A stretch of 64,000 nucleotides of DNA from Metabacillus litoralis (GTDB lineage: Bacteria > Bacillota > Bacilli > Bacillales > Bacillaceae), in NCBI RefSeq assembly GCF_007994985.1, contig NZ_VOQF01000006.1, positions 248,001-312,000 of the forward strand. Direction: 5' to 3'. The translations under genes were made by a program, and so were the position numbers. The notes beneath the pieces are model-generated. The model was given only the letters and a program-made list of their open reading frames with translations, was not told where the DNA came from and did no database searches. The first letter of the stretch is position 1. The number at the start of each line of letters is the position of its first letter. Positions 29,243-64,000 of the stretch are shown piece after piece.

Positions 29243-29250
29243 TACGAATA

Positions 29251-45066: not shown

Positions 45067-45079
45067 TCTTTATCCTCTC

Positions 45080-45852: not shown

Positions 45853-45943
45853 TAAGTATTGATAAATTAATATCTTTGTATTGTGGCTGTAAAATAAGTT
45901 AATTAAAATTAATGAAATAAATTAAGTCTGTGCAATTTTCGTG
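45853..45943 (+). repeat. 91-bp direct repeat, left copy
   Basis: Pairs with 47854-47944 without indels; I count 14 mismatches (about 85 percent identity). Exact shared blocks include TGTAAAATAAGTTAAT and AAATTAAGTCTGTGC. The copies bracket the decayed block with a 2001-bp offset. Confidence 0.85.
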
Positions 45944-46051
45944 TTTGTGGTCGGTGTTTAATTAATAGAAAATTTTAGTATACGTGTTAATAGTTAACTA
46001 AAGGTCAAATCCTTTTATCTTTCTACTTTTTGTTCTAACGTTACTGTTCAT

Positions 46052-46081
46052 TTGACATATCGAAAATAACCGATATACAAT
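46052..46081 (+). promoter_or_regulatory. arsR promoter with embedded operator, leaderless
   Basis: TTGACA, 18-bp spacer, TACAAT. The inverted repeat ATATCG-N8-CGATAT (46057-46076) fills the spacer, as in autorepressed ArsR genes. The ATG at 46089 lies 7 nt after the -10 box, which is where transcription should begin, so the message should lack a leader. Confidence 0.6.
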
Positions 46082-46088
46082 ATGAACT

Positions 46089-46403
46089 ATGGAACTAATC
46101 GATGTTTTTAAGGCATTATCAAATGAAACACGGCTAAATATATTACAGTGGTTAAAGGAACCAGAGAAGCATTTCCCTAAACAAGGAGCTCATTTGCCAA
46201 AGGAGGTAAATTATAAAGGTGGGGTATGTGTAGGGGATATTCAAGAAAAAGCCAAAGCTTCTCAATCTACTGTATCTCACTACTTAAATATGATGCAGAA
46301 AGCGGGTCTGCTTGAATCTGTTCGTTATAATCAATGGACCTATTATAGAAGAAACGAAGAATTCATTAAACAATTAGCTGAATATTTTAAAACAGAAATC
46401 TGA
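46089..46403 (+). CDS. ArsR-family transcriptional regulator
   Basis: 104 residues. Winged helix: DVFKALSNETRLNILQWL, then VCVGDIQEKAKASQSTVSHYLNMMQKAGLL with recognition helix, and YNQWTYYRRN wing. A single Cys (in GVCVGD) is not a full metal site, so it may be a non-metal sensor of the type that controls adjacent drug/metabolite transporters and SDR genes. No Shine-Dalgarno precedes its ATG; see the leaderless promoter. Its probable target, the downstream transporter, is broken. Confidence 0.85.
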   Translation: MELIDVFKALSNETRLNILQWLKEPEKHFPKQGAHLPKEVNYKGGVCVGDIQEKAKASQSTVSHYLNMMQKAGLLESVRYNQWTYYRRNEEFIKQLAEYFKTEI

Positions 46404-46483
46404 TCGCTTGATTTCTGTATTTTTTTCGAATAGTATATCGATTATTCTAGATATATAAATAAATAGGTAGGAGAGAAAGTCTA

Positions 46484-46850
46484 ATGCGTTACTTTGCATA
46501 TTTACTAGCATTATTAGCAGGAGTTGCCCTAAGTTTTGAAGGAGCAATCTACGGTGAATTAGGCAAATCTATTGGTCAGCTTGAAACAAGTTTTTATAAC
46601 TTCTTTATGTGATCAATCATTCTTGGATTACTGTGGTTATTCTTTGGAAAAGGTAAACTTTCATATGTGGCAGAAGCACCTAAATGGACACTACTTGGAG
46701 GTATTTTAGGGGTTGTTTATTTAACGTCTATAATCATTAGTGTTCCTTTTGTTGGTGTTGGCATAACGATGGTTGCTGTCGTTATTGGTCAACTGGTAAT
46801 GAGCATGGTGATTGAACATTATGGTTGGCTTGGTGGGAAGCATTATTTAA
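46484..46850 (+). pseudogene. DMT-family (YdcZ/DUF606) transporter, broken
   Basis: Good ribosome site (TAGGAGAG) and ATG 46484 start a membrane protein YFAYLLALLAGVALSFEGAI, but codon 43 is TGA (46610-46612) where Gly/Trp is expected; reading continues in the same frame with SIILGLLWLFFGKGKL and FVGVGITMVAVVIGQLVMS, then EHYGWLGG, after which it is joined to an unrelated SDR sequence. Both the nonsense codon and the deletion mark it as dead. Confidence 0.85.
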
Positions 46851-47412
46851 AAAACATTCTCAAATTGATATTTTAGTTAACAATATGGGGATTTATGAAA
46901 TTATGAAATATGAGGACGTCGACGATGATGTGTGGGAAAAGTATATCCGTACTAATGTTCTTGCTGCAAATGGATTATCTAAATTTTACTTACCTAAAAT
47001 GATAAAAAATAATTTTGGTCGAATTATCTTTATTGCGAGTGAAGAAGGAGTTATGCCCTCGGGACAAATGCCTCAATATTGTATGACAAAATCAATGCTA
47101 TTATCATTGTCAAAAAGCCTATCTAAATTAACAATAGGAAAAGAAGTTACAGTCAATACGATCATGCCGGGACCATCACTCTCCGAAAATGTGTATCAAA
47201 TAATTGAGGGGATGTACCCTAATGAAGATATGACTTTTTCAGAAAAGGAGAAAAAATTTATGACTACAAATCTACCTCAATCTGAAATCCAACGATTTAT
47301 CAGGCCAACTGAGATAGGTAGATTAACTACCTTTATATGTAGTCCCTATGCATCCGCTTTTAAAGGTTCTCCAATACGTATGGATGGAGGCATGGTACCG
47401 ACTATTTTCTAG
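46850..47412 (+). pseudogene. SDR oxidoreductase, N-terminally truncated
   Basis: Carries the middle and C-terminal SDR parts (QIDILVNNMGIYE, GRIIFIASEEG, catalytic YCMTK, VNTIMPGPS, IRMDGG) but lacks the nucleotide-binding TGxxxGIG strand and everything before it. An open frame from ATG 46825 (195 residues) runs through transporter sequence in another frame and has no ribosome site. A deletion at about 46845-46865 fused the remnants of two genes. Confidence 0.85.
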
Positions 47413-47422
47413 CACTTTTCCC

Positions 47423-47448
47423 CTTACTCACTTCTCAAGGTGAGTAAG
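47423..47448 (+). terminator. hairpin after the SDR remnant
   Basis: CTTACTCAC-N8-GTGAGTAAG 11 bp past the stop; weak T tract. The following 47450-47760 has no recognisable gene. Confidence 0.55.
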
Positions 47449-47760
47449 AATTCTTTCAAAAAACAAATCTTCGTTAAATGCTCAAAAATATGACCTGTAT
47501 GAGGAAGAAGAATAATGGATTGAACAGGGAGGTTTCATCGGGCCAGACGTGTTAATTCCACTTATCGTTAAAGTGGAATAGTTAGATACTAAAGAGCTCA
47601 CTAGAGAGGCAATACCACTTATCCAATTCAAAAATAAAAGGGTTAGCTATCAAGATAAATAAGAAAAGGGCTAGGCGGTGGAGCTAGACATTAAAACTAA
47701 GTAAATATTTTTCTCATAAAATAACCCCAATCCCTAATATAAGGAACTGAAGCTTCACTC

Positions 47761-47804
47761 TGATGATCCGTGAAGGATTCGAACCCCCGACCCCTACCCT
47801 GTCA
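47761..47804 (-). pseudogene. tRNA 3'-end fragment
   Basis: Minus strand GTCGGGGGTTCGAATCC is a T arm with the invariant GTTCGAAT loop, followed by TTCACGGATCATCA as 3' acceptor strand and end. The 5' half (acceptor, D and anticodon arms) is absent, so it is not a working tRNA. Such 3' tRNA fragments are typical scars of integrase-mediated insertion. The isoacceptor cannot be named. Confidence 0.65.
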
Positions 47805-47853
47805 AAATTGGGTGGGGAATTAATAGAGGTTAAAGTAATAAAATAGAGTTAAT

Positions 47854-47944
47854 TAAGTATTGGTAAATCAACGTTTTTGGCTTTTGGTTGTAAAATAAGT
47901 TAATAGAAATCAATGAAATAAATTAAGTCTGTGCTATTTTTGTG
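47854..47944 (+). repeat. 91-bp direct repeat, right copy
   Basis: Second copy of 45853-45943, just past the tRNA fragment and before scoB. Ends GTGCTATTTTTGTG where the left copy ends GTGCAATTTTCGTG. Confidence 0.85.
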
Positions 47945-47984
47945 CAATATCCAAGGTTTTGTCGATTAAATAATCATACAATTG

Positions 47985-48644
47985 CTAATAGGCATCACTC
48001 AAAACTTGTTCAGTCACAATCAACTCCGGCTCAGTAGAATCAATAACATCCTGAACACTAAAACCTAGAGCTACTTCTATCAATTTTAATCCATCCTCCG
48101 TTACATCAATAACCGCACGATCTGTAATAATTCGATTAACAACATTCTGACCAGTAAAGGGTAACGAACATTTTTTTAGAATCTTGGGCTGGCCGGTCTT
48201 GTTCACATGCTCCATGATGACAATAATCTTTTTGGCCCCGTGAACTAAATCCATTGCCCCTCCCATACCTTTGATCATTTTTCCTGGTATCATCCAGTTT
48301 GCTAAATCACCGTTTTCTGATACCTCCATACCACCTAAAATCGCTAAATCAATATGACCACCGCGTATCATGCCAAATGATTCTGCATTATTAAAGAAGC
48401 TTGCTCCTTTTATGGCCGTTACTGTTTCTTTTCCTGCATTGATTAAATCTGGATCGACCTCCTCTTTTGATGGATAAGGACCAATCCCTAATAACCCATT
48501 CTCTGATTGTAAAACAACCTGCTTATTCTCCGAAATATAGTTTGCAACTATGGTAGGCATCCCTATTCCTAAGTTTACATAGAAACCATCTTGGATTTCT
48601 TTTTCTGCTCTTTGTGCAATTTGTATTCTTACGTTTTTGGTCAT
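47985..48644 (-). CDS. scoB: 3-oxoacid CoA-transferase, subunit B
   Basis: 219 residues. [15 protein letters not shown], the catalytic-glutamate motif [10 protein letters not shown] and [24 protein letters not shown] are diagnostic of the beta subunit of SCOT/AtoA-type CoA-transferases. With ScoA it moves CoA from succinyl- or acetyl-CoA to acetoacetate or a similar 3-oxoacid. Third gene after thiolase and scoA (18-nt gap). Confidence 0.93.
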
Positions 48645-48662
48645 CTTTGTCCCTCCTCTTTT

Positions 48663-49352
48663 TTATGCTTGAACAGTAAGTCGTTCGATTCGCTTTTTAT
48701 GCTTACCAACAATAAGTCCTTGAACATAAATACCTGGTGTATGTATTTGATCTGGGTCTAGTTCTCCTACTTCAACAATTTCCTCTACTTCTGCAATTGT
48801 TATTGTCCCTGCTGCTGCCATCATAGGGTTGAAGTTTTGAGCTGTTTTGCGATAAATTACATTGCCCATTTTGTCTGCTTTCCACGCTTTAATTAAACTA
48901 AAATCAGCTGTAAGGGACTCTTCAAGTAAATACTCCTTCCCATTAAATCCCCTTATTTCTCTACCTTCTGCAATCGGTGTCCCAACTCCAGCTGGGGTGT
49001 AAAAGGCCGGAATGCCTACACCACCTGCACGAATTTTCTCTGCTAAAGAACCTTGTGGGGTTAGTTGTACCTCTAATTCACCGCTTAGTACTTGTCTTTC
49101 AAACTCTTTATTTTCACCAACATAAGATGAAATCATCTTTTTTATTTGTTTATTTTTAAGTAAAAGTCCAAGTCCCCAATCATCAACTCCACAGTTGTTT
49201 GAAATAACGGTCAAATTCTTCACATTCTTCTCACATAGAGCTTTGATGAGGTTCTCTGGTATTCCAACTAGTCCAAATCCCCCAACCATAAGCGTTATTC
49301 CGTCCTTAATATCTTGAACTGCTTCTTCAAAACTAGTAAATATTTTTTTCAA
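48663..49352 (-). CDS. scoA: 3-oxoacid CoA-transferase, subunit A
   Basis: 229 residues. Starts [17 protein letters not shown], then the oxyanion motif [27 protein letters not shown] and [16 protein letters not shown]. Start TTG 49352 is preferred: AAAGAGGTG lies 7 nt upstream, inside the end of the thiolase gene, and the product then begins like other ScoA proteins. ATG 49373 would run through the ribosome site. Confidence 0.92.
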
Positions 49353-49353
49353 T

Positions 49354-50556
49354 TTACTGCACCTCTTTTTCATAGTTTTCTATAATTGTTGAAACTCCTT
49401 GACCACCACCGATGCATAATGCCGCTAAACCATATTTTCCATTTCTTCTTTTTAATTCGTGGATTAATGTCGTCAGAATTCTTGCTCCACTTGCCCCAAT
49501 CGGATGTCCTAAGGCAATGGCTCCACCATTTACATTTAACTTCTCTTTTGAAAATTGAAGCTCTTTTCCAACCGCAAGTGCTTGTGCTGCAAATGCTTCG
49601 TTCGCTTCAATTAAATCCAAATCATTGATTGTAAGATCCGCTTTACTTAATGCTTTTTTCGTGGCTGGCACAGGAGCGATCCCCATAATACTTGGGTCTA
49701 CAGCTGCACTTGCATTAGCACGAATTGTGACTAAAGGTTCGATCCCAAGTTCTTTTGCTTTGCGAAGACTCATCATGAGAACAGCAGCTGCTCCATCATT
49801 AATTCCTGATGCATTCCCCGCGGTTATACGTCCGTCCTTTTTAAAAGCTGGCTTTAGCTTTTCTAATGTTTCTACTGTTGTTTCCACCTTTACATATTCA
49901 TCTGTGTCAAACGAAATTGGTTCTCCTTTTCGTTGAGGAATTTCTACTTCTACAATTTCATCCTTAAATTTCCCTTCTTTTATAGCTATTGCTGCCTTTT
50001 CTTGGCTCCATGCAGCAAATTCATCTTGTTCCTGCCGCGTTACTTCAAATTGGTCACAAATATTTTCTGCTGTAATTCCCATGTGATAATCATTAAAAGC
50101 ACACCACAATCCATCATGAATCATACTATCTATGAGTTTCTGATCTCCCATTCTGTACCCCTCTCTAGCTGCCATAGATAAGTAAGGTGCCTGGCTCATA
50201 TTTTCCATTCCACCAGCAACAACGATTTCGGCATCTCCTGTTAAAATAGCTTGAGTCGCTAAATGAACAGTCTTTAATCCTGATCCACACACTTTATTTA
50301 CCGTGAAAGCAGATACATGTTCAGGAAGGCCTGCATGTATAGCAGATTGTCTTGCCGGGTTCTGACCGAGACCCGCTTGAAGTACATTTCCCATGATGAC
50401 CTCATCAACTTGATCACCCCAAACTCCTACCTGCTCTAGAACAGCCTTTATAACATGTGCACCTAATTGGACGGCACTGAGATTTTTTAAGCTTCCACCA
50501 AATTGACCAATAGGTGTTCTTAAAGCGCTTACAATAACAACCTCATTGTGAACCAT
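49354..50556 (-). CDS. acetyl-CoA C-acetyltransferase (thiolase)
   Basis: 400 residues with all thiolase residues: nucleophile Cys in [17 protein letters not shown] (His) and the second Cys in ALCIGGGQG. Cleaves acetoacetyl-CoA or a longer 3-oxoacyl-CoA. First gene of thiolase-scoA-scoB; the set turns a free 3-oxoacid into acetyl-CoA units. Ketone-body or short-chain oxoacid use is favoured, since the nearby ring-cleavage route does not need a 3-oxoadipate step. Confidence 0.92.
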
Positions 50557-50660
50557 ATACCTTTCCTCCCACTCTATTGTTTAGTCAGAATTTTTAAAAT
50601 ATATTTACTTATTAATTTACAGTATTCCAACTTATGAGTAAAATGAATAATAGTTATATT

Positions 50661-50683
50661 TTTTATTCAAATACAGAATAAAA
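50661..50683. promoter_or_regulatory. LysR-type box upstream of the lysR-type gene
   Basis: TTTTATTC-N7-GAATAAAA, an 8-bp inverted repeat containing the T-N11-A pattern of LysR-family sites, in the 130-bp divergent region with the thiolase operon. It abuts the regulator's ribosome site, suggesting autorepression. Confidence 0.55.
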
Positions 50684-50694
50684 GGGTGATGACC

Positions 50695-51570
50695 TTGGAA
50701 TTAAAGGATCTTCGCTATTTCACAGAAGTAGCAACTTACGGCAGTTTCACAAAGGCAGCTTCAAGCACCTTTATCTCACAGCCAACATTAAGTAAGTCGA
50801 TTAAAAAGCTAGAATCAGAGCTTAAAGTAGAATTAATTGAACGTTCGACACGTAAGTTAATATTGACTGATGCAGGAAAAATTGTCCTTAAGCAAGCTAG
50901 TAAAATATTAGGGGCTACAGATGAACTTTCTATTCTTTTAGATGACTTAATTAATTTGCCAACAGGAAATATTAAGATTGGGATCCCACCATTGATTGGT
51001 ACGCTCTTTTTTCCAGAAATAGCGAAAACATTTAAACAGGAGTTTCCAGAGGTTACCCTAGAATTAGTTGAACTAGGAGCAAAACGAATTGAGCAATTAG
51101 TTGAAGAAGGTCAAGTTGATGTGGGTATCATTGTTTTCCCTACAGATCATAGCAAATTCGATATTACTCCGTTTATTAAAGAGGAGTTCATGCTTTATAC
51201 AAATTCAAAGCATAGATTTGCCGAATTGACTAAGGTCAACCTACCACAACTAGCAGAAGAAAGTTTTATCGTTTTTAATCGGGAATTTGCCTTACACGAA
51301 CTGATTATAAAAGAATGTCAGAAAGTAGGATTTCATCCCAACATTGCTTACGAAAGCTCACAATGGGATTTAATAACAGAACTCGTTGGAGCAGAGCTTG
51401 GTATCACGCTATTACCAAAGTCAATCTATAGAAAGATGGATCAAGAAACCATTAAGATGATTAAATTAACTTCACCGCCTATGTGGGAGCTTGGATTTAT
51501 TACGAAAAAAGAAAGGTATCAATCTTTTGCTGTTAGGGCTCTTTTGAAGTTTGTTGCTGAGAGGTTTTAA
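50695..51570 (+). CDS. LysR-family transcriptional regulator
   Basis: 291 residues. N-terminal HTH DLRYFTEVATYGSFTKAAS...ISQPTLSKSIKKLE, then an LTTR effector domain (IKIGIPPLIGTLFFPEIAK, ELVGAELGITLLPKSI). I start at TTG 50695 because the product then begins MELKDLRYF, the standard family start, and AAAGGGTGAT lies upstream; GTG 50686 and ATG 50689 overlap that site. Divergent from thiolase-scoAB, which it likely activates in response to an acid intermediate. Confidence 0.9.
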   Translation: MELKDLRYFTEVATYGSFTKAASSTFISQPTLSKSIKKLESELKVELIERSTRKLILTDAGKIVLKQASKILGATDELSILLDDLINLPTGNIKIGIPPLIGTLFFPEIAKTFKQEFPEVTLELVELGAKRIEQLVEEGQVDVGIIVFPTDHSKFDITPFIKEEFMLYTNSKHRFAELTKVNLPQLAEESFIVFNREFALHELIIKECQKVGFHPNIAYESSQWDLITELVGAELGITLLPKSIYRKMDQETIKMIKLTSPPMWELGFITKKERYQSFAVRALLKFVAERF

Positions 51571-51621
51571 CAATAAAAACGAAAACATTCAATAAAAAGT
51601 TGGAAAACAATAATACTAAAA

Positions 51622-51657
51622 AAGCTTCACTCTCATAACATCAAGGGAGTGAAGCTT
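51622..51657. terminator. bidirectional terminator
   Basis: 11-bp stem AAGCTTCACTC / GAGTGAAGCTT between the convergent lysR-type and praA genes, A-rich before and T-rich after. Confidence 0.7.
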
Positions 51658-51687
51658 CACAATCATTTTTAGTCATCGATTACTACA

Positions 51688-52500
51688 TTACAATTCCTTT
51701 TTAAAATCAAACGTCATAATTGCATTTCCACTTCCTGAAGATTGAGCATAGGTATGGAATGTTGGATGATATTTATCTCCTAACACACCAAGCATCATAG
51801 CGAGATGACGTCCTCCTCCTTCTACACCAGCAATTTTAGCATATTGGGGTAACATTTCCTTTGCAAGATTCCAGTTCTTTCCCGTAATATAATCAATAAA
51901 CTGTTTATCTAATGCTTGCTCAGAAACAGTCGGCATATGGTGACGTCCTCTTACTAAATTATGAGCAAGAGCACCACTGAATATAAACACATACCTTTTG
52001 TAGTCGCCATTTAGTACATTACCAATTTCTTGCCCCCATTTATATGTTTCATCTAATCCAGCTGCAAGAGTAATAGATAAATTGACAACCGGAACATCTT
52101 CGCTTGGAACAAGATAGCGAAGAGGTACAACGGTGCCATAATCCCACACATATGTTGGATCATTAACTGCAATAACTGGAATTTTTGCTCGTTTACCAGC
52201 CATCACTAATTTTTCGCCTAAACTTTGATCTCCAGGGTACTCGTATTTAACATCAGAAATAATGTCGGGACATTCGAATGCAGTTAAAACACCTTTATGT
52301 GTTTGTGACACATCAACATAATGATGAAATGTTGATTGCCAATGACACGAAACAATAATAACAGCATCTGGTTTTATTGTTTCAATTTTCTCGGAAATAG
52401 CATCCATCTTTGCCACAATATCTTGTTGATATTCAGGTACATTTTCCCGATGACAAATACTTGGAACATGTGCAGCTAAAACACCCAATTCAATTGTCAT
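51688..52500 (-). CDS. praA: class III extradiol dioxygenase, probable protocatechuate 2,3-dioxygenase
   Basis: 270 residues, LigB-type. Iron ligands and acid/base histidines fit LAAHVPSICH near the N-terminus, VSCHWQSTFHHYVDV, and FIFSGALAHNL; GNAIMTFDF closes the family pattern. Cleaves a catechol ring beside the hydroxyls. The following operon processes a hydroxymuconic semialdehyde, and the decarboxylase at 58833 plus 4-hydroxybenzoate hydroxylase point to protocatechuate as substrate, as in the Paenibacillus pra pathway. Homoprotocatechuate dioxygenase is the main alternative. Last gene of the seven-gene operon. Confidence 0.8.
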   Translation of the reverse strand: MTIELGVLAAHVPSICHRENVPEYQQDIVAKMDAISEKIETIKPDAVIIVSCHWQSTFHHYVDVSQTHKGVLTAFECPDIISDVKYEYPGDQSLGEKLVMAGKRAKIPVIAVNDPTYVWDYGTVVPLRYLVPSEDVPVVNLSITLAAGLDETYKWGQEIGNVLNGDYKRYVFIFSGALAHNLVRGRHHMPTVSEQALDKQFIDYITGKNWNLAKEMLPQYAKIAGVEGGGRHLAMMLGVLGDKYHPTFHTYAQSSGSGNAIMTFDFKKEL

Positions 52501-52526
52501 TTTAAACCTCCATTGCTTTAATAAAC

Positions 52527-52724
52527 TTAATTTGATGCATTACGTTTTTCAACTGATTCACCAGCAATTCCCCAATGACTTTTAGGTATTTCAGTTACGA
52601 TCACTCTTACATTCTCTTTCGGAACCTCTAATGTAGTCGTGATTGTTTCCGTAATATCAGCAATCACTCTTTCAATTTTCTCCTTAGGACGTCCTTCCAT
52701 GATGTTAACGTTTACAATTGGCAT
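52527..52724 (-). CDS. praC: 4-oxalocrotonate tautomerase
   Basis: 65 residues. After removal of Met the catalytic Pro1 is exposed (PIVNVNIMEGRPKEK), and Arg residues fit the 4-OT pattern; ends after VTEIPKSHWGIAGES. Interconverts 2-hydroxymuconate and 4-oxalocrotonate. 26 nt before praA. Confidence 0.9.
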   Translation of the reverse strand: MPIVNVNIMEGRPKEKIERVIADITETITTTLEVPKENVRVIVTEIPKSHWGIAGESVEKRNASN

Positions 52725-52766
52725 AATAGAGCCTCCTTTCTATTCTTTTTCTGAAAGCAACCACAC

Positions 52767-53552
52767 TTATTCCCCTACAGAAAAGCTGACTTCGCCTAGT
52801 CCATCTAGCTTAGCTGTTACATGATCACCATACGAAAGTTGGACAGCCCCAGTGATTCCTCCTGTCAAAATAACTTGGCCAGCCTTCAACTTTTCTCCTT
52901 TTCGATGTAGCATGTTCGCTAGCATGGCAACAGAATTCGCAGGGTGTCCTAAAACAGCCGCTCCTGCACCAAGGTCCTTCATTACTCCATTAATCTTTAA
53001 AACAGTTCCAACTAAATCTAATTCTAATTCTTCTGGTTTTCGAATTCTATTTCCCAAAACAACCCTAGAAGAGGATGCGTTATCTGCAATAACGTCTGGC
53101 AACGTAAAATTAAAGTTTTCATAACGGCTATCAATGATTTCAAGTGCTCCACAGACATAATCTGTAGCCGCTAAAACTTGAGCTCCAGTGATACCAGGAC
53201 CTTCAATATCCTTACCTAAAATAAAGGCAATTTCCGCTTCCACTTTCGGATGAATATAGTCAGATAATGAAATTTCTGCTCCATCTTGGATCACCATATT
53301 GTTAAAAATGTATCCATATATTGGTTCTTCTACATTCATTTGGACCATTTTTGCTCGACTTGTAAGTCCCATCTTTGGCCCAATTATGGAATGCCCTTGC
53401 TCCAGCTTCATGTTGACAAGTTCTTCTTGAATAAGATAGGCTTCCTCTACAGTTAAGTTAGGAGATTTATCTAACGTGATTCTTTTTATATCCGTTCGAT
53501 TTGATTCAGCTTCTAATAAATATTTAGCTATTTCTTTATTTGACATATTCAT
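52767..53552 (-). CDS. praD: 4-oxalocrotonate decarboxylase
   Basis: 261 residues of the FAH-like hydratase/decarboxylase family. PKMGLTSRAKMVQMNVEEPI, HPKVEAEIAFI, EIIDSRYENFNF and GGITGAVQLSYGD agree with the decarboxylase branch (XylI/DmpH) rather than the hydratase. Makes 2-hydroxypenta-2,4-dienoate and CO2. Start ATG 53552 is 6 nt after AGGAGGA; ATG 53558 directly abuts it. Acts in complex with the hydratase in other species. Confidence 0.88.
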   Translation of the reverse strand: MNMSNKEIAKYLLEAESNRTDIKRITLDKSPNLTVEEAYLIQEELVNMKLEQGHSIIGPKMGLTSRAKMVQMNVEEPIYGYIFNNMVIQDGAEISLSDYIHPKVEAEIAFILGKDIEGPGITGAQVLAATDYVCGALEIIDSRYENFNFTLPDVIADNASSSRVVLGNRIRKPEELELDLVGTVLKINGVMKDLGAGAAVLGHPANSVAMLANMLHRKGEKLKAGQVILTGGITGAVQLSYGDHVTAKLDGLGEVSFSVGE

Positions 53553-53566
53553 TGTCATTCCTCCTA

Positions 53567-54595
53567 TTAAACACTAAGACTACTTTGTTTTTTATTCGCT
53601 ATTTCAGAAGCCACATCAATAATCATATCCTCTTGACCACCAACAACCTTACGTTTCCCCAATTCTATTAAAATATCACGAGGATCAATGTTAAAGTGTT
53701 TGGCTGCGCGCTGTGCGTGTAATAAAAAGCTAGAATACACACCCGCATAGCCCATCACAAGACTATCTCTTGTAATCTCTTGAGGTTGTTTTAATATAGG
53801 AGATACAATACTTTCCGCTAAATCCATCATCTTATATAAATCGACTCCACTGTTTAACCCTAGTCTTTCTAGTACAGCTACTAAAACTTCTGTCTGCGTA
53901 TTCCCAGCGCCAGCTCCTAAACAGCGTACACTGCCATCTATTCTTGTTGCACCTTCCTCAATGGCAACAAATGTATTAGCCATCGCAAGCGATAAATTAT
54001 TATGAGCATGAAAACCAATATTAATGGTTAGGCTTTGACGAAGGGAACGAATTTTTTCACGAACTTCATTTGGAAGCATGGCTCCGGCTGAATCGACGAC
54101 ATAAACCGTATCTGCTCCATAACTCTCCATTAATTTAGCTTGCTCTACTAACTTATCAACTGGTGCCATATGAGACATCATTAAGAAACCTACCGTCTCC
54201 ATACCAAGTTCTTTTGCTAAAGTAATATGTTGAGGAGCTACATCTGCTTCTGTTACATGAGTAGCAATTCTAGCCATTTTTGCTCCAATACTAGCTGCTT
54301 GCTTCAGCTCATTCATCGTTCCAATTCCAGGTATTAATAAAACAGCCACTTTTGCCTTGTCACAAACCGATACAGCTGCTTCAATCAGTTTCATTTCCTC
54401 CGTTAAAGAAAGACCATATTGTTGGGAAGACCCACCTAAACCATCTCCATGAGCGACTTCCATATAAGGCACTCCGGCATTACTTAATGCACGTGCTACA
54501 TCACGAACTTGGTCGACTGTGTATTGATGACCGATCGCATGACTACCGTCTCGTAAAGCTACTTCTGTAATGAGAACATCTCGGTTATCGTTCAT
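53567..54595 (-). CDS. praF: 4-hydroxy-2-oxovalerate aldolase
   Basis: 342 residues, DmpG-type. ITEVALRDGSHAIGHQYT, MEVAHGDGLGGSSQQYG, GFHAHNNLSLAMANT (metal-binding His pair), RIDGSVRCLGAGAGNTQTE. Splits 4-hydroxy-2-oxovalerate to pyruvate and acetaldehyde and channels the aldehyde to the dehydrogenase encoded upstream. Confidence 0.94.
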   Translation of the reverse strand: MNDNRDVLITEVALRDGSHAIGHQYTVDQVRDVARALSNAGVPYMEVAHGDGLGGSSQQYGLSLTEEMKLIEAAVSVCDKAKVAVLLIPGIGTMNELKQAASIGAKMARIATHVTEADVAPQHITLAKELGMETVGFLMMSHMAPVDKLVEQAKLMESYGADTVYVVDSAGAMLPNEVREKIRSLRQSLTINIGFHAHNNLSLAMANTFVAIEEGATRIDGSVRCLGAGAGNTQTEVLVAVLERLGLNSGVDLYKMMDLAESIVSPILKQPQEITRDSLVMGYAGVYSSFLLHAQRAAKHFNIDPRDILIELGKRKVVGGQEDMIIDVASEIANKKQSSLSV

Positions 54596-54628
54596 TCCAA
54601 ACCATTCCTTTCCGCTAAAACTTCTTGT

Positions 54629-55516
54629 TTAAGAAACAACAGAATTCAGTTTATTTTTAGCCAGTTCTTCCGCTACTTTTACTGCTGAGGCTGTCATGAT
54701 ATCTAGATTTCCAGAGTATTTAGGCAAATAATCTCCTGCTCCTTCAACCTCGATGAATATGGTTACACGGTTTCCGTCAAAAATTGGTTCTGTTCGGAGT
54801 CGATAACCTGGTACATAAGCTTGAACTTGTTTGACCATTTCTTTAATAGATGATGTAATTTTATCTTCATCTATTTGTCCTGGTTCGACAACAGCATAAA
54901 CGGTATCTCTCATTAAAATAGGGGGTTCGGCTGGATTAAGAATAATAATGGCTTTTCCCTTCTTAGCTCCACCAATCTCCTCAATCCCACGTTTCGTCGT
55001 TTGAGTAAATTCATCTATATTCGCTCTTGTTCCAGGACCTGCACTTTTACTTGAAATGGTTGCAACAATTTCGGCATATTCAACAGGGCAAATCTTATTT
55101 ACCGCATGAACAATTGGAATTGTCGCCTGACCTCCGCAAGTAATTAAATTGATGTTAGGAACGTTTAAGTTTTCCCCCAGATTAACCGGAGGGACAACAA
55201 AAGGCCCTCTTGCTGCTGGAGTTAAGTCAAGGACTTGCTTGCCAGCTTCTTTTAAAAGTTTCGCATGTCGAACATGGGCTTTTGCCGATGTTGCATCAAA
55301 GAAAATATCAGCGTCATCACTGTTATTTTCTAAAAATTCCTCTAATCCGTTCGTATAGGTTTGATAACCTCGTTCTCTTGCCCTAAATATTCCATCAGAA
55401 TGAGGATCAATTCCGATCAAAGATGTTAACTCAAGTGTTTCAGATCTTTCTAGCTTCAGCATTAAATCTGTCCCGATATTCCCAGTACCTATGATTGCTA
55501 CTTTTATTTTTCCCAT
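54629..55516 (-). CDS. praG: acetaldehyde dehydrogenase, acylating
   Basis: 295 residues, DmpF-type. Rossmann [26 protein letters not shown], catalytic Cys in [14 protein letters not shown], and [20 protein letters not shown]. Oxidises acetaldehyde to acetyl-CoA with NAD and CoA. Works as a complex with the aldolase (33-nt gap). Confidence 0.94.
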
Positions 55517-55541
55517 ATGAATCTCCTTTCCCCTGAGCTTA

Positions 55542-56321
55542 TTATGAAGAAAAGCGAACTGAAACTTCTCCTAAACGAGCAATTCTTGCTGAAAAGATAT
55601 CGCCTGGTTTTGCTTCTACAGCTGCAGAAAGTGCACCTGAGAGAATAACTTCTCCAGCTTTTAATGGAATATCAAATTCGCTTAATTTATTAGCAAGCCA
55701 TGCTACACAATTTGCCGGATGTCCCATTACGGCTGCTCCAACTCCCGTATTAACGATTTCACCATTTTTTGATAAAACCATGCCAATTTGTTCAAGGTCT
55801 ACAGAATCCACTCGAACAGGTTTTCCACCTAAAACATAATGACTGCTTGAAGCATTATCTGCTATCGTATCTTGTAGTTTGATTTTCCAATCCTTCACAC
55901 GACTATCAACGATCTCTATGGAAGGTAAAATATAATCTGTTGCTTGAAGCACATCAAGTGCAGTTACATTTGGTCCTTTTAAATCCTCTTTTAGCACAAA
56001 CGCAATTTCTGCCTCTACTCTAGGTTGCATAACTCGATCAAAAGATAGCTCAGTTCCATTTCCAACGACCATTTCATCTAGTAAGTGGCCATAATCTGGT
56101 TCATCCACACCAAGTAATTGTTGCATCGCAAGAGATGTTAAGCCAATTTTCTTTCCAACAATTGTTTGACCTTGGGCTAATTTGTGTTTAATAAGTTCTA
56201 ATTGGACGGCGTACGCATCTTGAGTTGTAAAAGTTGGATTTTGTTCAGTTAAAGCCGCAATTCCGACTCTTTCTTTTTCTGCTTGTAATAATTGATTAGC
56301 AAATAACACGGTTGATTCCAT
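55542..56321 (-). CDS. praE: 2-hydroxypenta-2,4-dienoate (2-oxopent-4-enoate) hydratase
   Basis: 259 residues, paralogue of pra[53 protein letters not shown] and [12 protein letters not shown] match the hydratase branch (XylJ/DmpE). Adds water to give 4-hydroxy-2-oxovalerate. The two paralogues were told apart by the [10 protein letters not shown] versus DSRYENFNF region. Confidence 0.88.
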
Positions 56322-56339
56322 CTTGATTGACCTCCTATT

Positions 56340-57803
56340 TTAAAGTTTGATACAAATGTTTTTCAACTCGCTATAAAACTCAAAGCTGTGCATACCGCCT
56401 TCACGACCGATTCCACTTTGCTTCATACCACCAAATGGAGTTCGTAAATCTCTTAAGAACCAAGTATTAACCCAAATAATTCCAGCTTCTACTTCATTTG
56501 CCACTCTATGAGCTCTGCGAAGATCATTCGTCCAAATGGAAGCACTTAGTCCGTAATGAGAATCATTTACTTGAGCAATGACCTCATCCTCTAAATCAAA
56601 TGGAATCACAGTGACAACAGGTCCAAATATTTCTTCACGAACACATCTAGCATTTCGATCTAAGTCTGTAATGATCGTTGGCTCAATAAAATACCCTTTT
56701 TCTAGCCCTGAAGGACGACCTCCACCAATACGGATTGTTCCTCCTTCTTCCTTCGCAAGCTCAATATATCCTAAAACGCGCTCATAATGTTCTTTTCCAA
56801 TCATTGCACCAATTTTTGTTTTTTCATCAAATGGATCTCCAACAACAAGCTCTTTTGTTTTTGCTACAAACTTTTCAATAAACTCTTCATAAACTGGACG
56901 TTCAACATAAATTCTTGATCCACATAAACAAACCTCACCTTGATTGATAAAGCTAGACTTAATAGTTGTTTCTAGTACTTCATCAAGATCAGAATCAGCA
57001 AAGATGATATTTGGGTTTTTCCCGCCTAGTTCATATGAAAGCTTTTTAAGTGAATTTGCTGCTGCCTTCATGATCGCTGTACCAGTAGAGGTTTCACCGG
57101 TGAATGTAATCGCATCTACATCAGGATGTTCTGTTAAAGCTGATCCAGCAGAGTTAGGTCCAAAACCATGTACTACGTTTACAACACCATCTGGTACTCC
57201 AGCTTCTTTACAAATTTCCGCTAAAACGGTTGCCGTCATTGGTGTCCATTCAGCTGGTTTCAATACAGCAGTATTTCCTGCAGCTAAACACGGAGCAAGT
57301 TTCCACGTTAATAGAAGTAATGGGAGATTCCACGGATTGATTAACCCAACAACTCCTACTGGCTTACGTACTGAATAGTTGATGGCTATATCATCATGTT
57401 GATAAGCCTCAGTTCCCATTGTTGTCATGTAGTCAGCAAAGAAATGGAAGTTATAGGCTGCTCTCGGGATATCGATCGTACTTGATAACCAAATTGGTTT
57501 TCCTGTATCAAGAGATTCTAATCGCGCTAACTCATCTTTTCTTTCTAATATTAAATCTCCAATTTTACGTAATACTTTAGAACGTTCTGTTAAAGGCATT
57601 GTTTTCCATCGACCGTTTAGTGCTCTTCTAGCTGCAGATACAGCTAAGTTAATTTCCTCCTCCCCACCTTCAGCTACAGATCCTACTATCTCTTCATTTG
57701 CTGGATTCGTATTTATAAATGTTTTGTTATTCATAGAATCCATGTATTGCCCATTAATAAAATGTCTACAATCAATTCCTGTTGCTGTAGTAATCGCTTC
57801 CAT
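56340..57803 (-). CDS. praB: 2-hydroxymuconic semialdehyde dehydrogenase
   Basis: 487 residues, ALDH superfamily. FINGQYMDSMNNKTFINTNP, GLINPWNLPLLLLTWK, FTGETSTGTAI, ELGGKNPNIIFADSD, catalytic Cys in GEVCLCGSR, and EIFGPVVTVIPF are of the HMSDH branch. Start ATG 57803 has GGAGGA 6 nt upstream; ATG 57809 abuts that site. First gene of praBEGFDCA, controlled from the region shared with the IclR gene. Its 5' end and promoter have a decayed copy at 61135-61355. Confidence 0.92.
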   Translation of the reverse strand: MEAITTATGIDCRHFINGQYMDSMNNKTFINTNPANEEIVGSVAEGGEEEINLAVSAARRALNGRWKTMPLTERSKVLRKIGDLILERKDELARLESLDTGKPIWLSSTIDIPRAAYNFHFFADYMTTMGTEAYQHDDIAINYSVRKPVGVVGLINPWNLPLLLLTWKLAPCLAAGNTAVLKPAEWTPMTATVLAEICKEAGVPDGVVNVVHGFGPNSAGSALTEHPDVDAITFTGETSTGTAIMKAAANSLKKLSYELGGKNPNIIFADSDLDEVLETTIKSSFINQGEVCLCGSRIYVERPVYEEFIEKFVAKTKELVVGDPFDEKTKIGAMIGKEHYERVLGYIELAKEEGGTIRIGGGRPSGLEKGYFIEPTIITDLDRNARCVREEIFGPVVTVIPFDLEDEVIAQVNDSHYGLSASIWTNDLRRAHRVANEVEAGIIWVNTWFLRDLRTPFGGMKQSGIGREGGMHSFEFYSELKNICIKL

Positions 57804-57891
57804 AACCATTCCTCCATTACATAAAATGTTTTCATTTCTTTGTAATGTTAGAATAGTACAAAATCGTCCCTTATAAAACATCAATGTTCTT

Positions 57892-57904
57892 ATATATGGA
57901 ACGA
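57892..57904 (+). promoter_or_regulatory. putative IclR operator, praB side
   Basis: ATATATGGAACGA, about 90 bp upstream of praB. Same motif at 61280-61292 (ATATATGGAACAA) and, inverted, at 57988-57999. Confidence 0.5.
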
Positions 57905-57980
57905 ATTGAAGTTTTTTAAAAAATATTTTGATTATTCTCTTTATTCACTCTATGTGATATAGTGAAAGAAAACCTCATAA

Positions 57981-57999
57981 AGGAATATCGTTCCTCTAT
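57981..57999 (-). promoter_or_regulatory. putative IclR operator, regulator side
   Basis: AGGAA-TATCG-TTCCT palindrome at 57981-57995; the minus strand reads ATAGAGGAACGA, matching the 57892 motif in opposite orientation, 25 bp before the iclR-type start. Confidence 0.55.
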
Positions 58000-58023
58000 G
58001 AACAACAGATTGGAGAGTAAACA

Positions 58024-58809
58024 ATGACGGAAACGACTAAAAAAGATTACACACTTTCATCTGTAAAAAATGCACTTCGTATCTTACGAAAATTTACAAT
58101 GGATCAACCTGAACTAAAAATTACTGAGCTTGCTCGAGAGTTAGACCTTGGTAAAAGTACAGTGAGCAGACTGATGTCAACATTAGCAAGTGAGGGCTTT
58201 GTTGAAAAAGATCCAGAAACACAGCGTTATCGATTAGGTTTATCTATCCTTTCACTTGCAAGTGTTTGTACATCAACTTTTGAGATTCATAAGGAAGCCA
58301 TGCCAGTTTTACATGAACTTGTTGAAAAAACAGGTGAAACTGCTCACCTAGCAATTCTTGATGGCTTAGATGTCATTTACTTACACAAGGTCGAAAGTAA
58401 GCACCATGTACGTGCTTTCACCCATATCGGTAAAAGAAATCCCGCCTATGCAACGAGCTCTGGAAAGGTGCTTTTAGCTTTTAACAATGAACAAAGAGTA
58501 GAAAAAACGATTGAAAACGGATTAGAGCCATTTACACAACATACCATTACAGATCAGAAAACATTAATGGAAACCCTTACAAATATTCGCAAACAAGGTT
58601 ATGCCGTAAGTACGGAAGAAATATCTGAAGGTGTTGTCTCAATTGCTGCTCCAGTAAAAGACTACACAGGACAAGTCATTGCCGCTGTTAATATCGTTGG
58701 ACCTATTCAACGAGTAAACGATCAAACAATTCCATCACATATTAAGAGAGTTGTAGAAGCAGGTAAAGAAATTTCTAGACGTTTAGGTTATCGATTTAAT
58801 CATTATTAA
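58024..58809 (+). CDS. IclR-family transcriptional regulator of the pra cluster
   Basis: 261 residues. N-terminal HTH (LKITELARELDLGKSTVSRLMSTLA) and IclR effector domain (DGLDVIYLHKVES, TSSGKVLLAF, STEEISEGVVSIAAPVKD). PcaR/PobR-type IclR proteins govern aromatic degradation. Divergent from praB and co-directional with praH (23-nt gap). TTGGAGAG precedes ATG 58024. Ligand probably 4-hydroxybenzoate or protocatechuate (inference). Confidence 0.9.
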   Translation: MTETTKKDYTLSSVKNALRILRKFTMDQPELKITELARELDLGKSTVSRLMSTLASEGFVEKDPETQRYRLGLSILSLASVCTSTFEIHKEAMPVLHELVEKTGETAHLAILDGLDVIYLHKVESKHHVRAFTHIGKRNPAYATSSGKVLLAFNNEQRVEKTIENGLEPFTQHTITDQKTLMETLTNIRKQGYAVSTEEISEGVVSIAAPVKDYTGQVIAAVNIVGPIQRVNDQTIPSHIKRVVEAGKEISRRLGYRFNHY

Positions 58810-58832
58810 TACTTAAAAGGAGCTGAATTTCC

Positions 58833-59774
58833 ATGCATGATTTTCACACTCATTTTATTCCCGAAGAAGTCGTTGATTGGATAAAAGACCAAAGAAACAT
58901 CATTAATGCAAGCTGGGAGAAAAAAAGTCAAGATAAAGAAGAATTTTTATCTATTAACAACAAGTGGGTATTTGAACTAAAACAAGAATTCACTAATAAA
59001 TCTTTATATCTAACAGAACAACAAAACATTGGTGTGGATCATTCAGTTGTTTCACCGATTCCTCAGCTATTTTTATATGATTTCCCTTCAGAGATTACAA
59101 GAGAATTAGTAGCTGTTTACAACACATCACTTGCAAAATGGTCACAAGTCCAATCACAAAAAATATCAGCACTTGCCACCGTTTCTCTTAATCACCCTGA
59201 AACTGCTGCACAAGACTTAAGAGATGCAATGAATATGGGATTAAAAGGTGCCATTATTGGACCTGGATTAAACGGTAAATTATTATCAGACAACTCTTTC
59301 ACTCCTTTTTGGGAAGAAGCGAATAAGCAAAAAGCGATCATGTTCATCCATCCTTTATTATGTGAAGATCAACGTTTAAACCAGCGCATGATGCCAAACT
59401 TAATTGGTGTACCTTGGGAAACAACGATTACAGCTACAGATCTCTTACTAAGTGGCCTATTAGATACATACAACAATGTAAAAATTCTCTTGGCACATGG
59501 TGGAGGATTCCTTCCTTATCAAATCGGTCGTTTGAACAAAGGCTTTGAAATGTGGCCACTCGTTTCAAAGAACTTGCAAAAAGAGCCGATCGAGTACTTA
59601 AAAGACTTTTGGTATGATAGCGTCTTATGGAATCCAACTACACTTGACTACTTAGCTAAAACTGTTGGAAAAGAAAGAATTGTTCCAGGGTCCGATTTTC
59701 CATTTGACCTTTGTGAATGGCCACCAGCAAAGCAACTGGCCAAAGGCTCGGAATCTTTACTTCAATCTATCTAG
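58833..59774 (+). CDS. praH: amidohydrolase-type decarboxylase, probable 5-carboxy-2-hydroxymuconate-6-semialdehyde decarboxylase
   Basis: 313 residues of the ACMSD-like amidohydrolase family: metal-binding HDFHTHFIPEEV at the N-terminus, SPIPQLFLYD, GLKGAIIGPGLNG, MFIHPLLC, ILLAHGGGFLPYQ and VPGSDFPFDLCEW. This family removes the ring-derived carboxylate from semialdehydes; here it would convert the protocatechuate 2,3-cleavage product to 2-hydroxymuconic semialdehyde for PraB. AAAAGGAG precedes ATG 58833. Confidence 0.83.
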   Translation: MHDFHTHFIPEEVVDWIKDQRNIINASWEKKSQDKEEFLSINNKWVFELKQEFTNKSLYLTEQQNIGVDHSVVSPIPQLFLYDFPSEITRELVAVYNTSLAKWSQVQSQKISALATVSLNHPETAAQDLRDAMNMGLKGAIIGPGLNGKLLSDNSFTPFWEEANKQKAIMFIHPLLCEDQRLNQRMMPNLIGVPWETTITATDLLLSGLLDTYNNVKILLAHGGGFLPYQIGRLNKGFEMWPLVSKNLQKEPIEYLKDFWYDSVLWNPTTLDYLAKTVGKERIVPGSDFPFDLCEWPPAKQLAKGSESLLQSI

Positions 59775-59786
59775 TAATTTGTTATG

Positions 59787-59849
59787 AAAAGAGGCTGACT
59801 TGAGAGACAATCCCATACCGGGGACTGTCCTCTACTGTCAGCCTCTTTT
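59787..59849. terminator. bidirectional terminator
   Basis: 13-bp stem AAAAGAGGCTGAC / GTCAGCCTCTTTT with further pairing inside the loop, between convergent praH and pobA. Confidence 0.8.
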
Positions 59850-59851
59850 TA

Positions 59852-61078
<1,227 letters not shown>

Positions 61079-61134
61079 TCAAAATATTTTTTATATAGAA
61101 ACTTCTTATTCTAAAAGAGTCCCAATTCTACAAA

Positions 61135-61355
61135 AATATTACTTTAGAACGTTCTGTTAAAGTCTTTGATTTCCAACACCCTTATAAAAGTAACCGCTTC
61201 CATTCCTCATCATGTTTAATTCATTCTCTGTATATATAACATAGTATAAAATTGATCCTTATAAAACACGACTTTTCCTATATATGGAACAATATGATGA
61301 TTTTTCAAATATCTTTTTAGAGCTCTATGAAATATCGAGAAAATAAACCTCAAAA
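61135..61355 (-). pseudogene. decayed duplicate of praB 5' end and promoter
   Basis: ACTTTAGAACGTTCTGTTAA (61141 on) is identical to praB codons at 57574 on; further upstream ATGGAAGCGGTTAC (minus, start codon at about 61203) mirrors the praB start ATGGAAGCGATTAC; then the promoter stretches 61237-61298 and 57851-57912 align (TTATAAAACA, TATATATGGAAC, ATAGTA-AAAAT blocks). About 160 nt of 5' coding sequence between these blocks has been lost. No reading frame survives. Confidence 0.8.
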
Positions 61356-61360
61356 AAAGA

Positions 61361-62608
61361 TTACATCGTTAAATCTATATCTTTAGACTGCTGTATTTTA
61401 ATAGGTGCTGTTTCTTTAATTCCAAAAGTACATATAAACGCAATAAAAGCGGCAATTGCCGTAATCCATAACGGTGCAGTTAAGCTATATTTATCAGCTA
61501 ATACCCCTGCCATCATCGGACCAGCAAATCCTCCAATAATTTCCCCTGTTAAAATAACGAAACTTATCGCAGTAGCAGTAAATCTGCGAGATACAGATTC
61601 AGCTGGCACAATATTCATCACAAGTGGTTGATATCCATTACCAATCGAGAGGATAATCATTGAGATAATTAAAACAACAAAGTTTTGATAATATAATGCG
61701 ATCATGATTGGAAGGAAAATGGCAATAAATGAAAAGATTTTAAGAATAGGTAGTCTTCCTATACGGTCAGAAAGTGCAGGTGCTCCCATTTGCCCAACAA
61801 ACATCATGAGCCCCATAGCTCCAAGCAGCATGCCAATCTGAGCATCTTTATAGTTTGTTGAGTTCGCTAACATCGTTGGAAGAAAAGCGGTAAGAGTCAG
61901 GATGAAGACCATATTACAAGTCCCGATAATTGTGCATAGCCAAACGTTTCTTGTTTTAAATACTTTAAGATAATCTGCTTTCGTTGGTTTTACCAATTGT
62001 TGCTCCTCGTCTTGTTCAACAACAAGTTTGGGTTCTCTTAAATACTTCCATAAGATAAGACCAACGATGATCCCAGGAATGGCGATGATATAAAATGCTG
62101 ATCTCCAGCCTAAGGCTACTGCTAGGGAAACGGTCAAAACTGGTGCCATTGCACCTCCAATTAAAGAGGAAGCGCTTTGGATGACACCCATATTAAATCC
62201 CCTTCTTTTCTCAGAGGACTCCGCCATGACAATCGATTGAACTAACGGCATGACGGGCCCTTCAGCTAATCCCATGATGATTCTCGTCATAATTAAAGCA
62301 AAAAACGAACCGACAAGTCCGGTTAGTAAGGTAGCAATTGAAAAAACAAAAACAAAGATAACGAGCATTACCTTCTTTTTCCCTATAAAATCGGAAAGAC
62401 TAGCGAAGATTAACGTAGAGATTCCAAAGAATAAACTTGTAATCCCAACTGTTAAACCAAGCTGTGTATTTGATAGATTTAAATCCGGTCCCATGATAGG
62501 AAAAACAAACCCTAAACTTAATCGATCTAAAAACACAAGCCCGACAACGAAAAACATAATGATGACAAGGAAATTCTCATAACGTTTGCTTTTGCTTAAT
62601 TCATTCAT
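61361..62608 (-). CDS. MFS transporter, aromatic acid:H+ symporter-like
   Basis: 415 residues, twelve predicted membrane spans. MFS motifs FLDRLSLGFVFP, SLSDFIGKKKVML (loop 2-3), RIIMGLAEGPVMPL and ALSDRIGRLPILK (loop 8-9). Likely imports 4-hydroxybenzoate, protocatechuate or the substrate of the adjacent flavin hydroxylase. Shares the strand with the monooxygenase gene upstream (58-nt gap), so probably co-transcribed. Confidence 0.88.
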   Translation of the reverse strand: MNELSKSKRYENFLVIIMFFVVGLVFLDRLSLGFVFPIMGPDLNLSNTQLGLTVGITSLFFGISTLIFASLSDFIGKKKVMLVIFVFVFSIATLLTGLVGSFFALIMTRIIMGLAEGPVMPLVQSIVMAESSEKRRGFNMGVIQSASSLIGGAMAPVLTVSLAVALGWRSAFYIIAIPGIIVGLILWKYLREPKLVVEQDEEQQLVKPTKADYLKVFKTRNVWLCTIIGTCNMVFILTLTAFLPTMLANSTNYKDAQIGMLLGAMGLMMFVGQMGAPALSDRIGRLPILKIFSFIAIFLPIMIALYYQNFVVLIISMIILSIGNGYQPLVMNIVPAESVSRRFTATAISFVILTGEIIGGFAGPMMAGVLADKYSLTAPLWITAIAAFIAFICTFGIKETAPIKIQQSKDIDLTM

Positions 62609-62666
62609 TCAAATGCCCCCTTATATAATTATTCAAATTGAAAACGCATACATTTTTTATTATTCT

Positions 62667-63821
62667 TTAAACGTTTAACTCAGATAAGAAAGGTTCATTC
62701 ATTTTTTCAAGAGTCATCTTTAAAAACTCTCCAACATTTACTTTTTCCGTCATTCTTCCAGCAGAGGTTAACAATTCCCATTCAACTAATTGGTCGGAAT
62801 TCTCTACAATCATTTTGCAGCGTTCAAAACGTTTTTCCATAAATGCCTCCATTGTTTCTTGAACAGGGAGATTATGTTTTAAAATATCAGCTAAAACAAC
62901 GACATCTTCAATCGCAATTGAAGCACCTTGACCTAGATGTGGAGCTGTACCATGTGCCGCATCACCGACTAGTAAAACATTTCCTTTATACCACGGACTT
63001 TTCATAAGATGCGTAAATATCGGCCGGTAAACCACTTCAGAGGGATCAACAATTTGCTTAGCTATACCAGCAATGATTCCTCCAAATTCAGTCATCCTTT
63101 CCTTTAATAAATTATGCAATTGATTATTAGGAAACTTAGGATTCCCTGGTTCATTTGTTGTAACAAGTAGGTACATTAAGTCATCGGACATAGGAACCAA
63201 CCCTGCTTTAGCGTCCTTTCCATAATAAAAAAGGCCTTTGTCAATTTCTTTTGGTCGTGGTAGATTATACCTCCAAACTCCTTGCCCACTATAACGTTGC
63301 TCAATTTCACCAAACAGTAATGTTCTAACCTTAGAGTTAGCACCGTCTGAGCCGATAACTAAATCGTAAGTGGCAGTTATTCCATTATTCAGCGCGACCT
63401 TAACACCGTTTTCTTTGTTTTCAATTGTATTAACAGTCGTCCCCATATAAATCTTTGTATCTGTTGATTCAACGGCTTCAAACAAAATATTGTGTAGCTG
63501 TCTTCTTGAGATACCATTAACACCAGGGTACCCTACAATGGTTGGGGAAGCTGTATGAAACAAGAAATGGCCTTGACCTGTATAATAATCAAAACCTGGA
63601 TATGAAGTGCCTTGTTCCATACAAGCATCTGCTAAGCCAATTTCATTGAGAGCTCTTAAAGCATTAGGTGGCTGAATAATTCCTACTCCATACACGTTCC
63701 ACTCTAATTCCTTTTCAGCTATTTCTACTTCGATCCCAATTTTATTTAAAGCAATAGCTGCTGACAAGCCACTAATTCCTCCACCAACAACCAGTACCTT
63801 TTTTACATATTGATTTGTCAT
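62667..63821 (-). CDS. FAD-dependent aromatic monooxygenase (salicylate/3-hydroxybenzoate hydroxylase-like)
   Basis: 384 residues. VVGGGISGLSAAIALNK (FAD), IGSDGANSKVR (DG motif) and LLVGDAAHGTAPHLGQGASI (GD motif) place it in class A flavoprotein hydroxylases. It belongs to the salicylate / 3-hydroxybenzoate 6- / 6-hydroxynicotinate hydroxylase branch, not PobA. Substrate unknown. Upstream neighbour (downstream in coordinates) is a cyclase-family gene, so this may be a second aromatic pathway feeding the same cell. Confidence 0.87.
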   Translation of the reverse strand: MTNQYVKKVLVVGGGISGLSAAIALNKIGIEVEIAEKELEWNVYGVGIIQPPNALRALNEIGLADACMEQGTSYPGFDYYTGQGHFLFHTASPTIVGYPGVNGISRRQLHNILFEAVESTDTKIYMGTTVNTIENKENGVKVALNNGITATYDLVIGSDGANSKVRTLLFGEIEQRYSGQGVWRYNLPRPKEIDKGLFYYGKDAKAGLVPMSDDLMYLLVTTNEPGNPKFPNNQLHNLLKERMTEFGGIIAGIAKQIVDPSEVVYRPIFTHLMKSPWYKGNVLLVGDAAHGTAPHLGQGASIAIEDVVVLADILKHNLPVQETMEAFMEKRFERCKMIVENSDQLVEWELLTSAGRMTEKVNVGEFLKMTLEKMNEPFLSELNV

Positions 63822-63882
63822 GCTAGTACCTCCTCACATTTTTTGAAGTGCTTGCAAAACGCTAATTTTAGATTTAGTGCTT

Positions 63883-64000
63883 TTAATCAATGATCGCAAC
63901 TGCCCTCGTCCAGCCTGCGCTCGCTCCCTTTATTTTCACTGGAAACACAGATACTTTAAAGCCATAGGGTGGCAATTGATCTAAGTTTGCTAGTTTTTCA
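63883..64000 (-). CDS. cyclase-family protein (kynurenine formamidase-like), C-terminal end
   Basis: The last 39 residues of a gene that continues past the right edge: LDQLPPYGFKVSVFPVKIKG then ASAGWTRAVAIID and TAA. The LPP-GF-V-FPVKI-GASAGW-RAVA pattern is the conserved C-terminus of PF04199 cyclase-like metal-dependent hydrolases. 61 bp upstream of the flavin hydroxylase in the same direction. Confidence 0.8.
   Translation of the reverse strand, partial: EKLANLDQLPPYGFKVSVFPVKIKGASAGWTRAVAIID

Follow-up and report, generated by a model that had tools for sequence, protein, structure and literature searches.

Tycheposons of marine cyanobacteria are cargo-rich integrative elements located at tRNA genes, and the locus presented here, which also carries cargo-rich elements at a tRNA gene, is likened to them by general description and not by sequence. 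As the closest published parallel, we found the ssrA islands of Dehalococcoides, which lie in tandem: catabolic cargo is stacked 3' of the tmRNA gene together with a 20-bp repeat and serine recombinases, and 15 islands without an integration module were termed possible cis-mobilizable elements (PMC3146451). The CIMEs related to ICESt1 are described as having kept their attachment sites and lost their integration and transfer genes, and they lie beside later arrivals in the same site (PMC5704250). Islands of Islander class A combine an intact tDNA with a 3' fragment, which lies 3' of the gene and in the same strand, and with an anticodon-loop crossover (PMC4383910).

We compared with these systems a locus of Metabacillus litoralis contained in a stretch of 64,000 nucleotides, hereafter the window. 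Like the ssrA islands, it shows stacking 3' of one stable-RNA gene, each element being marked by a repeat of the 3' end of that gene; unlike them, it involves a tyrosine integrase, the anticodon loop of a tRNA-Val gene and a 42-nt fragment followed by a conserved arm (PMC3146451). The array resembles the CIMEs in its tandem accretion and in that no integration genes were found in it, a candidate likeness at the level of sequence (PMC5704250). As in Islander class A, an intact tDNA, a 3' fragment and a probable anticodon-loop crossover are present, but Islander requires an integrase in each island and no integrase was found in the array, which would therefore be left out by design (PMC4383910). 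The locus is a case of tandem accretion of integrase-less, CIME-like islands, a kind already known, and the array putatively works like CIME, ssrA and tDNA islands. A literature search by title found no description of such arrays in Metabacillus.

The locus is very probably the tRNA-distal end of an array in which site-specific integrative elements lie in tandem 3' of a single tRNA-Val(GAC) gene. It was first recognized by two 91-bp repeats, which an earlier note on this DNA had described as indel-free, about 85% identical and bracketing a decayed island. Recomputation returned the same pair (45853-45943 and 47854-47944, 85% identity, gap-free, 2001 nucleotides from start to start). The bracketing was not retained: the two repeats are the same end, in the same orientation, of two successive elements and not the two ends of one island, and what remains of the first element is the block that they enclose. 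The note had also suggested looking for more copies. A search of the 4.88-Mb genome with copy 1 as the query recovered copy 2 (E 8.8e-23), with no other match at E <= 0.001.

The content of the block was largely as announced, with Pfam matches and open reading frames that agree with a regulator, a TGA-bearing transporter and a short-fronted SDR. When the TGA was read through, the transporter matched the Pfam family DMT_YdcZ (E 4.6e-30). The relatives have their matches to the ArsR-YdcZ part and to the SDR part at different sites that are not linked, which sets the joint at window 46834/46835 and bears out the proposed fusion. The statement that the SDR lacks its front half had to be corrected. 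The four SDR relatives examined have stop-to-stop open frames of 269-284 residues with 74-93 residues before the match, and 74-78 residues precede it in the three frames of 269 residues; relative to these, the truncation amounts to approximately 74-78 N-terminal residues (about 28%), and the transporter has lost its C-terminal end too. The features are presented in Table 1.

Table 1. Features of the array end in the window, with the intact tRNA gene to its right (window positions unless a contig is given).
Feature	Position	Strand	Basis or remark
Arm unit 1, putative attachment-site arm of element A	45853..45943	+	its core and tRNA fragment are gone
ArsR-type regulator, element A cargo	46089..46403	+	Pfam HTH_5, E 1.8e-10
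YdcZ-type transporter pseudogene	46484..46834	+	in-frame TGA, C-terminal end lost; intact in relatives
SDR fragment without N-terminal part, fused to transporter remnant	46835..47412	+	joint seen against relatives
Terminator hairpin of tRNA-Val type, end of element A	47719..47760	-	fold z -3.5
tRNA-Val(GAC) 3' fragment, 42 nt, broken in anticodon loop; A/B junction	47764..47805	-	95% to intact gene
Core (anticodon-loop 7-mer CTGTCAA) and junction of element B	47799..47853	+	unit alignment
Arm unit 2, putative attachment-site arm of element B	47854..47948	+	91-bp pair and unit alignment
Element B cargo within window: aromatic catabolism	47985..64000		runs on to ~83.2 kb in extended coordinates
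Intact tRNA-Val(GAC)	C56:360565-360637	same as fragment	outside window

The 3' tRNA fragment reported in the earlier note derives from tRNA-Val(GAC), and the intact gene that shares its 3' end was located in the genome. ARAGORN found no intact tRNA in the 64-kb window; the one intact copy of tRNA-Val(GAC) found lies 64.8 kb rightward of the fragment, which stands on the same strand and on the 3' side of the gene, the feature of Islander class A. In the aligned units described below, identity between fragment and tRNA stops at CTGTCAA, in the anticodon loop, and we infer a crossover in this loop, the position of the cut being read from the sequence. Above 64000, the window numbering is carried on along the contig, window position 1 being C56:248001. 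In the genome, terminator and fragment occur together three times: at 47719-47805; at 83661-83738 (C56:331661-331738), where the copy has decayed (74% over 80 nt, E 6e-8); and at the intact tRNA, starting at 112519. Their alignment scores were 64, 36 and 67, respectively, against a maximum of 14 in one dimer shuffle, and compared with shuffles the hairpins folded with z values of -3.5, -6.1 and -6.2.

These three junctions order the array as remnant A, element B (~36 kb), element C (~29 kb) and the intact tRNA. Element A (45853-47805) is a 2-kb remnant with the ArsR gene, the broken YdcZ transporter and the truncated SDR. Element B, from 47764 to ~83.7 kb, is an aromatic-catabolism cassette with genes for a CoA-transferase, a LigB-type dioxygenase, a DmpG-type aldolase, an aldehyde dehydrogenase, an FAD monooxygenase and a major-facilitator transporter; a thiolase and the finer gene names were assigned by eye from ORF lists. 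Element C reaches as far as the intact tRNA; its cargo includes genes for glycosidases and transporters, also named by eye from ORF lists. The attachment sites have been kept unequally. The left end of B is well preserved and its right end has decayed to 74%; the left core of A is lost and no tRNA fragment was found at arm unit 1; no arm was recognisable in element C. A tblastn search with the full-length integrase of a relative (G005, see below) found no integrase in the array.

In the mechanism that we propose, a tyrosine integrase would insert each element by crossing over in the anticodon loop. Integration would restore the tRNA 3' end and its terminator at one junction, the 42-nt tRNA fragment being left at the opposite one. 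The integrase arm-site region, located just inside the fragment junction, would correspond to the 91-bp unit, which would therefore be present in one copy per element, and older elements would be pushed outward by later arrivals. The order of these events, and an entry of A and B by a G005-type integrase, are presumed. The anatomy, its recurrence in relatives and the exact empty and occupied sites of other elements at the same tRNA were directly observed.

At the tRNA of relative G011, an 11.6-kb element with a full-length tyrosine integrase is bounded by a 47-bp tRNA repeat, and the genome of the window (G000) presents the corresponding empty site. Similarly, G015 carries a 9.3-kb element with an integrase and a 48-bp repeat, for which G001 is the empty site. 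Both pairs concern elements with other integrases (~36% identical to that of G005), and not A or B. Together with the fragment-arm anatomy and the relatives, they agree with the eroding insertion site suggested in the earlier note, and the tyrosine integrases and exact insertions at tRNA-Val also fit its view that the tRNA fragment reflects integrase activity.

An exact empty site of A or B was not found in the relatives: a different cassette occupies the place in G011, and the left flank is not the same in G003. G011 is collinear with G000 as far as 45775, and collinearity resumes at 83430 and extends close to the tRNA, except for a 4-kb stretch near 102.7 kb; between the collinear parts it has one decayed fragment and arm, next to the same left flank, and then a different 31-kb cassette. 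The empty site with a single repeat that had been proposed as a check was thus obtained in approximate form only, the single unit and the flank being as anticipated and the following cassette not. In G003, element B starts at window 47716, at the terminator, the DNA to the left is unrelated, and ~10 kb of the aromatic cluster (50567-60551) is missing. The stretches fetched from G003 and G011 have in common only the fragment and arm, two matches of ~220 bp and the core flank. The left flanks differ among genomes except between G000 and G011, and the SigI/RsgI-like left flank adjoins the array in no relative other than G011, so that the position of the chromosomal left border is uncertain.

Core flank identity was 93-94% in all three pairs of G000, G003 and G011, and between G000 and G003 element B was 84-96% identical against 94% for the core flank, that is, about equally diverged. 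Recent transfer is therefore not established, and old inheritance with loss fits as well. It is possible, if rather unlikely, that the present arrangement came about as elements were inherited, recombined homologously at their shared ends and were lost in some lineages but not in others, A and B having undergone little site-specific insertion in recent times. The cassettes common to G003 or G011, diverged as much as the core flank, and the failure to find a G005-type integrase in the array speak for such a history, but the full attachment-site anatomy at the ends and the two other elements inserted exactly at the tRNA speak against it. Moreover, it concerns the later history of the elements and is compatible with the origin proposed here for their ends.

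The 91-bp unit was compared with 60 genomes, the own genome included, and had strong matches mainly within the genus, most of them adjoined by a copy of the tRNA-Val fragment. The arm was present at 27 places, of which 18 were aligned and the nine others were judged from the adjoining fragment in a separate search. The end of an element has a common layout: a terminator hairpin, a tRNA fragment broken in the anticodon loop, the core, and ~100 bp closing with a paired TGTGCAAT motif, after which the sequences diverge. Fragment, core (consensus AAAATTGGGTGGGGAAT) and arm followed in this order in 15 of the 18 aligned units, most of them with a terminator-like hairpin before the fragment, which supports the earlier suggestion that the repeats are attachment-site arms; the exceptions were copy 1 of the window, one G005 unit and G012 (core only). 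Mean pairwise identity, calculated without the three incomplete units, was 90% for the fragment, 82% for core and junction, 81% for the arm and 39% for the next 45 columns. Among the nine unaligned places, a fragment abutted the arm at three (G011 C1, G020 C297 and G020 C280). Some units were displaced or rearranged: that of G014 (L133) is inverted with respect to the tRNA, that of G004 (L088) lies 1.94 Mb away from its tRNA, a second one of G011 (L134) is on another contig, C1, and that on G003 C13 has a partial arm and no fragment. The assemblies of G005 and G020 were too fragmented for their units to be placed.

These comparisons also bear on how the second copy arose. A local duplication or unequal exchange within one element, with the ArsR-SDR block as later filler, would account for the direct orientation and the 2-kb distance of the pair. 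This is very unlikely, since over the same columns arm 2 is 95% identical to the first G006 unit (G006_1), 93% to G015 and 92% to G003, against 81% to arm 1, and has its own tRNA fragment and core. The reading of the earlier note, in which the 91-bp repeats are the attachment arms of a single island, one on each side, draws on the decayed block enclosed by two direct copies, but the copies stand in the same orientation, and the tRNA fragment lies inside the pair, beside the second copy. In relatives, every unit leads into a long cassette of its own, and the element closes at its opposite end with terminator and tRNA sequence and no second arm. This is presented by one G006 element with both ends, which has fragment and arm on the left (19412-19592 of the oriented stretch) and an integrase piece, terminator and intact tRNA on the right (49109-49526); a single island is, on these observations, highly improbable. 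That the unit is a dispersed intergenic repeat unrelated to integration is hardly credible: many copies exist across the genus, a few of them away from tRNA-Val (G004, G011 C1 and G003 C13), but the tRNA-Val fragment abuts the arm at 18 of the 27 places, and the own genome has two copies only, both at the array.

A search with the core and arm consensus in 80 genomes of the family was positive in 14, that is, 13 of the 21 genomes of the genus (the genome of the window included) and one of the 59 others. In the GTDB genome collection, the core pattern was found in five stretches, corresponding to three contigs of one Bacillus MAG, Metabacillus halosaccharovorans and M. arenae. No match was found in viral contigs, plasmids or phages.

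The full-length integrase of G005 is a 412-residue open frame beside an intact tRNA-Val, with the domains Arm-DNA-bind_4, Phage_int_SAM_3 and Phage_integrase; it lies on a 3.7-kb contig, and its element is not whole in the assembly. Pieces of a G005-type integrase (at least 88% identity) were detected beside the fragment or the tRNA in G002 and G006, directly before the terminator at two G002 junctions and one G006 junction, with shorter traces in G012. Other tyrosine integrases occupy the same tRNA-Val in G011 (L054), G015 (L061) and G008 (L071), and are ~36% identical to the G005 one. Given this identity for the integrases of the G011 and G015 elements, more than one integrase lineage uses the tRNA-Val site.

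Paired TGTGCA motifs were also observed near both ends of the G005 integrase gene. Over 842 kb, where 0.5 matches are expected from dimer shuffles, the paired pattern gave 12: nine of these fell at arm units, and the three others (two of them overlapping) flanked the G005 integrase. The nine matches at arm units are homologous and non-independent, so that the independent part consists of the G005 sites. The paired TGTGCAAT motifs are reported here as putative integrase arm-type binding sites.

A G005-type integrase at an identity of at least 88% was present in 3 of the 21 genomes of the genus, several of which are drafts in which integrases could be missed, and was full-length in one, against 13 of 21 with arms. 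From this disproportion we put forward, as a doubtful and tentative extension, a pool of integrase-less catabolic cassettes with a common arm, spread over Metabacillus and close kin and dependent for their movement on a rare helper integrase that acts in trans, with tRNA-Val as a slow, large-scale array of carbon-pathway cassettes. The G005 integrase would be a candidate helper for such movement. The locus appears as a hot spot where bacilli of the genus stack aromatic and sugar pathways. Comparable stacks in relatives contain other genes for the breakdown of nutrients, and most of them have lost the integrase. The tRNA fragment, core and arm together offer a precise sequence tag for integrase-less islands that are missed by integrase-requiring surveys such as Islander.

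Left of the array, the stretch at window 9569-29560 was considered as a further element and not adopted, no terminator or tRNA remains being found at its borders in G000 or G003. A local-alignment scan of window 1-46000 for terminator and fragment gave a best score of 16, against 14 in one shuffle. Among the genes named by eye in the 20 kb of 9569-29560 are uronate-isomerase-like ones and others of TRAP and LacI type; the stretch recurs inside the tRNA-Val array of G003 in another order.

Just outside the array end, a c-di-GMP-I riboswitch (window 45620-45707, minus strand, 73 bits) precedes a small lipoprotein-like gene (45080-45586). The latter falls within a four-gene module (42119-45586) of SigI/RsgI-like and lipoprotein-like genes, named by eye. 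Two of its proteins were searched, and among the 20 other genomes of the genus only G011 gave a close copy (93-96% identical), at the same array end. Within this region, window 44149-45066 (minus strand) encodes a protein that looks secreted and contains a long tract of nearly identical repeats of the AEKEREAAEK type.
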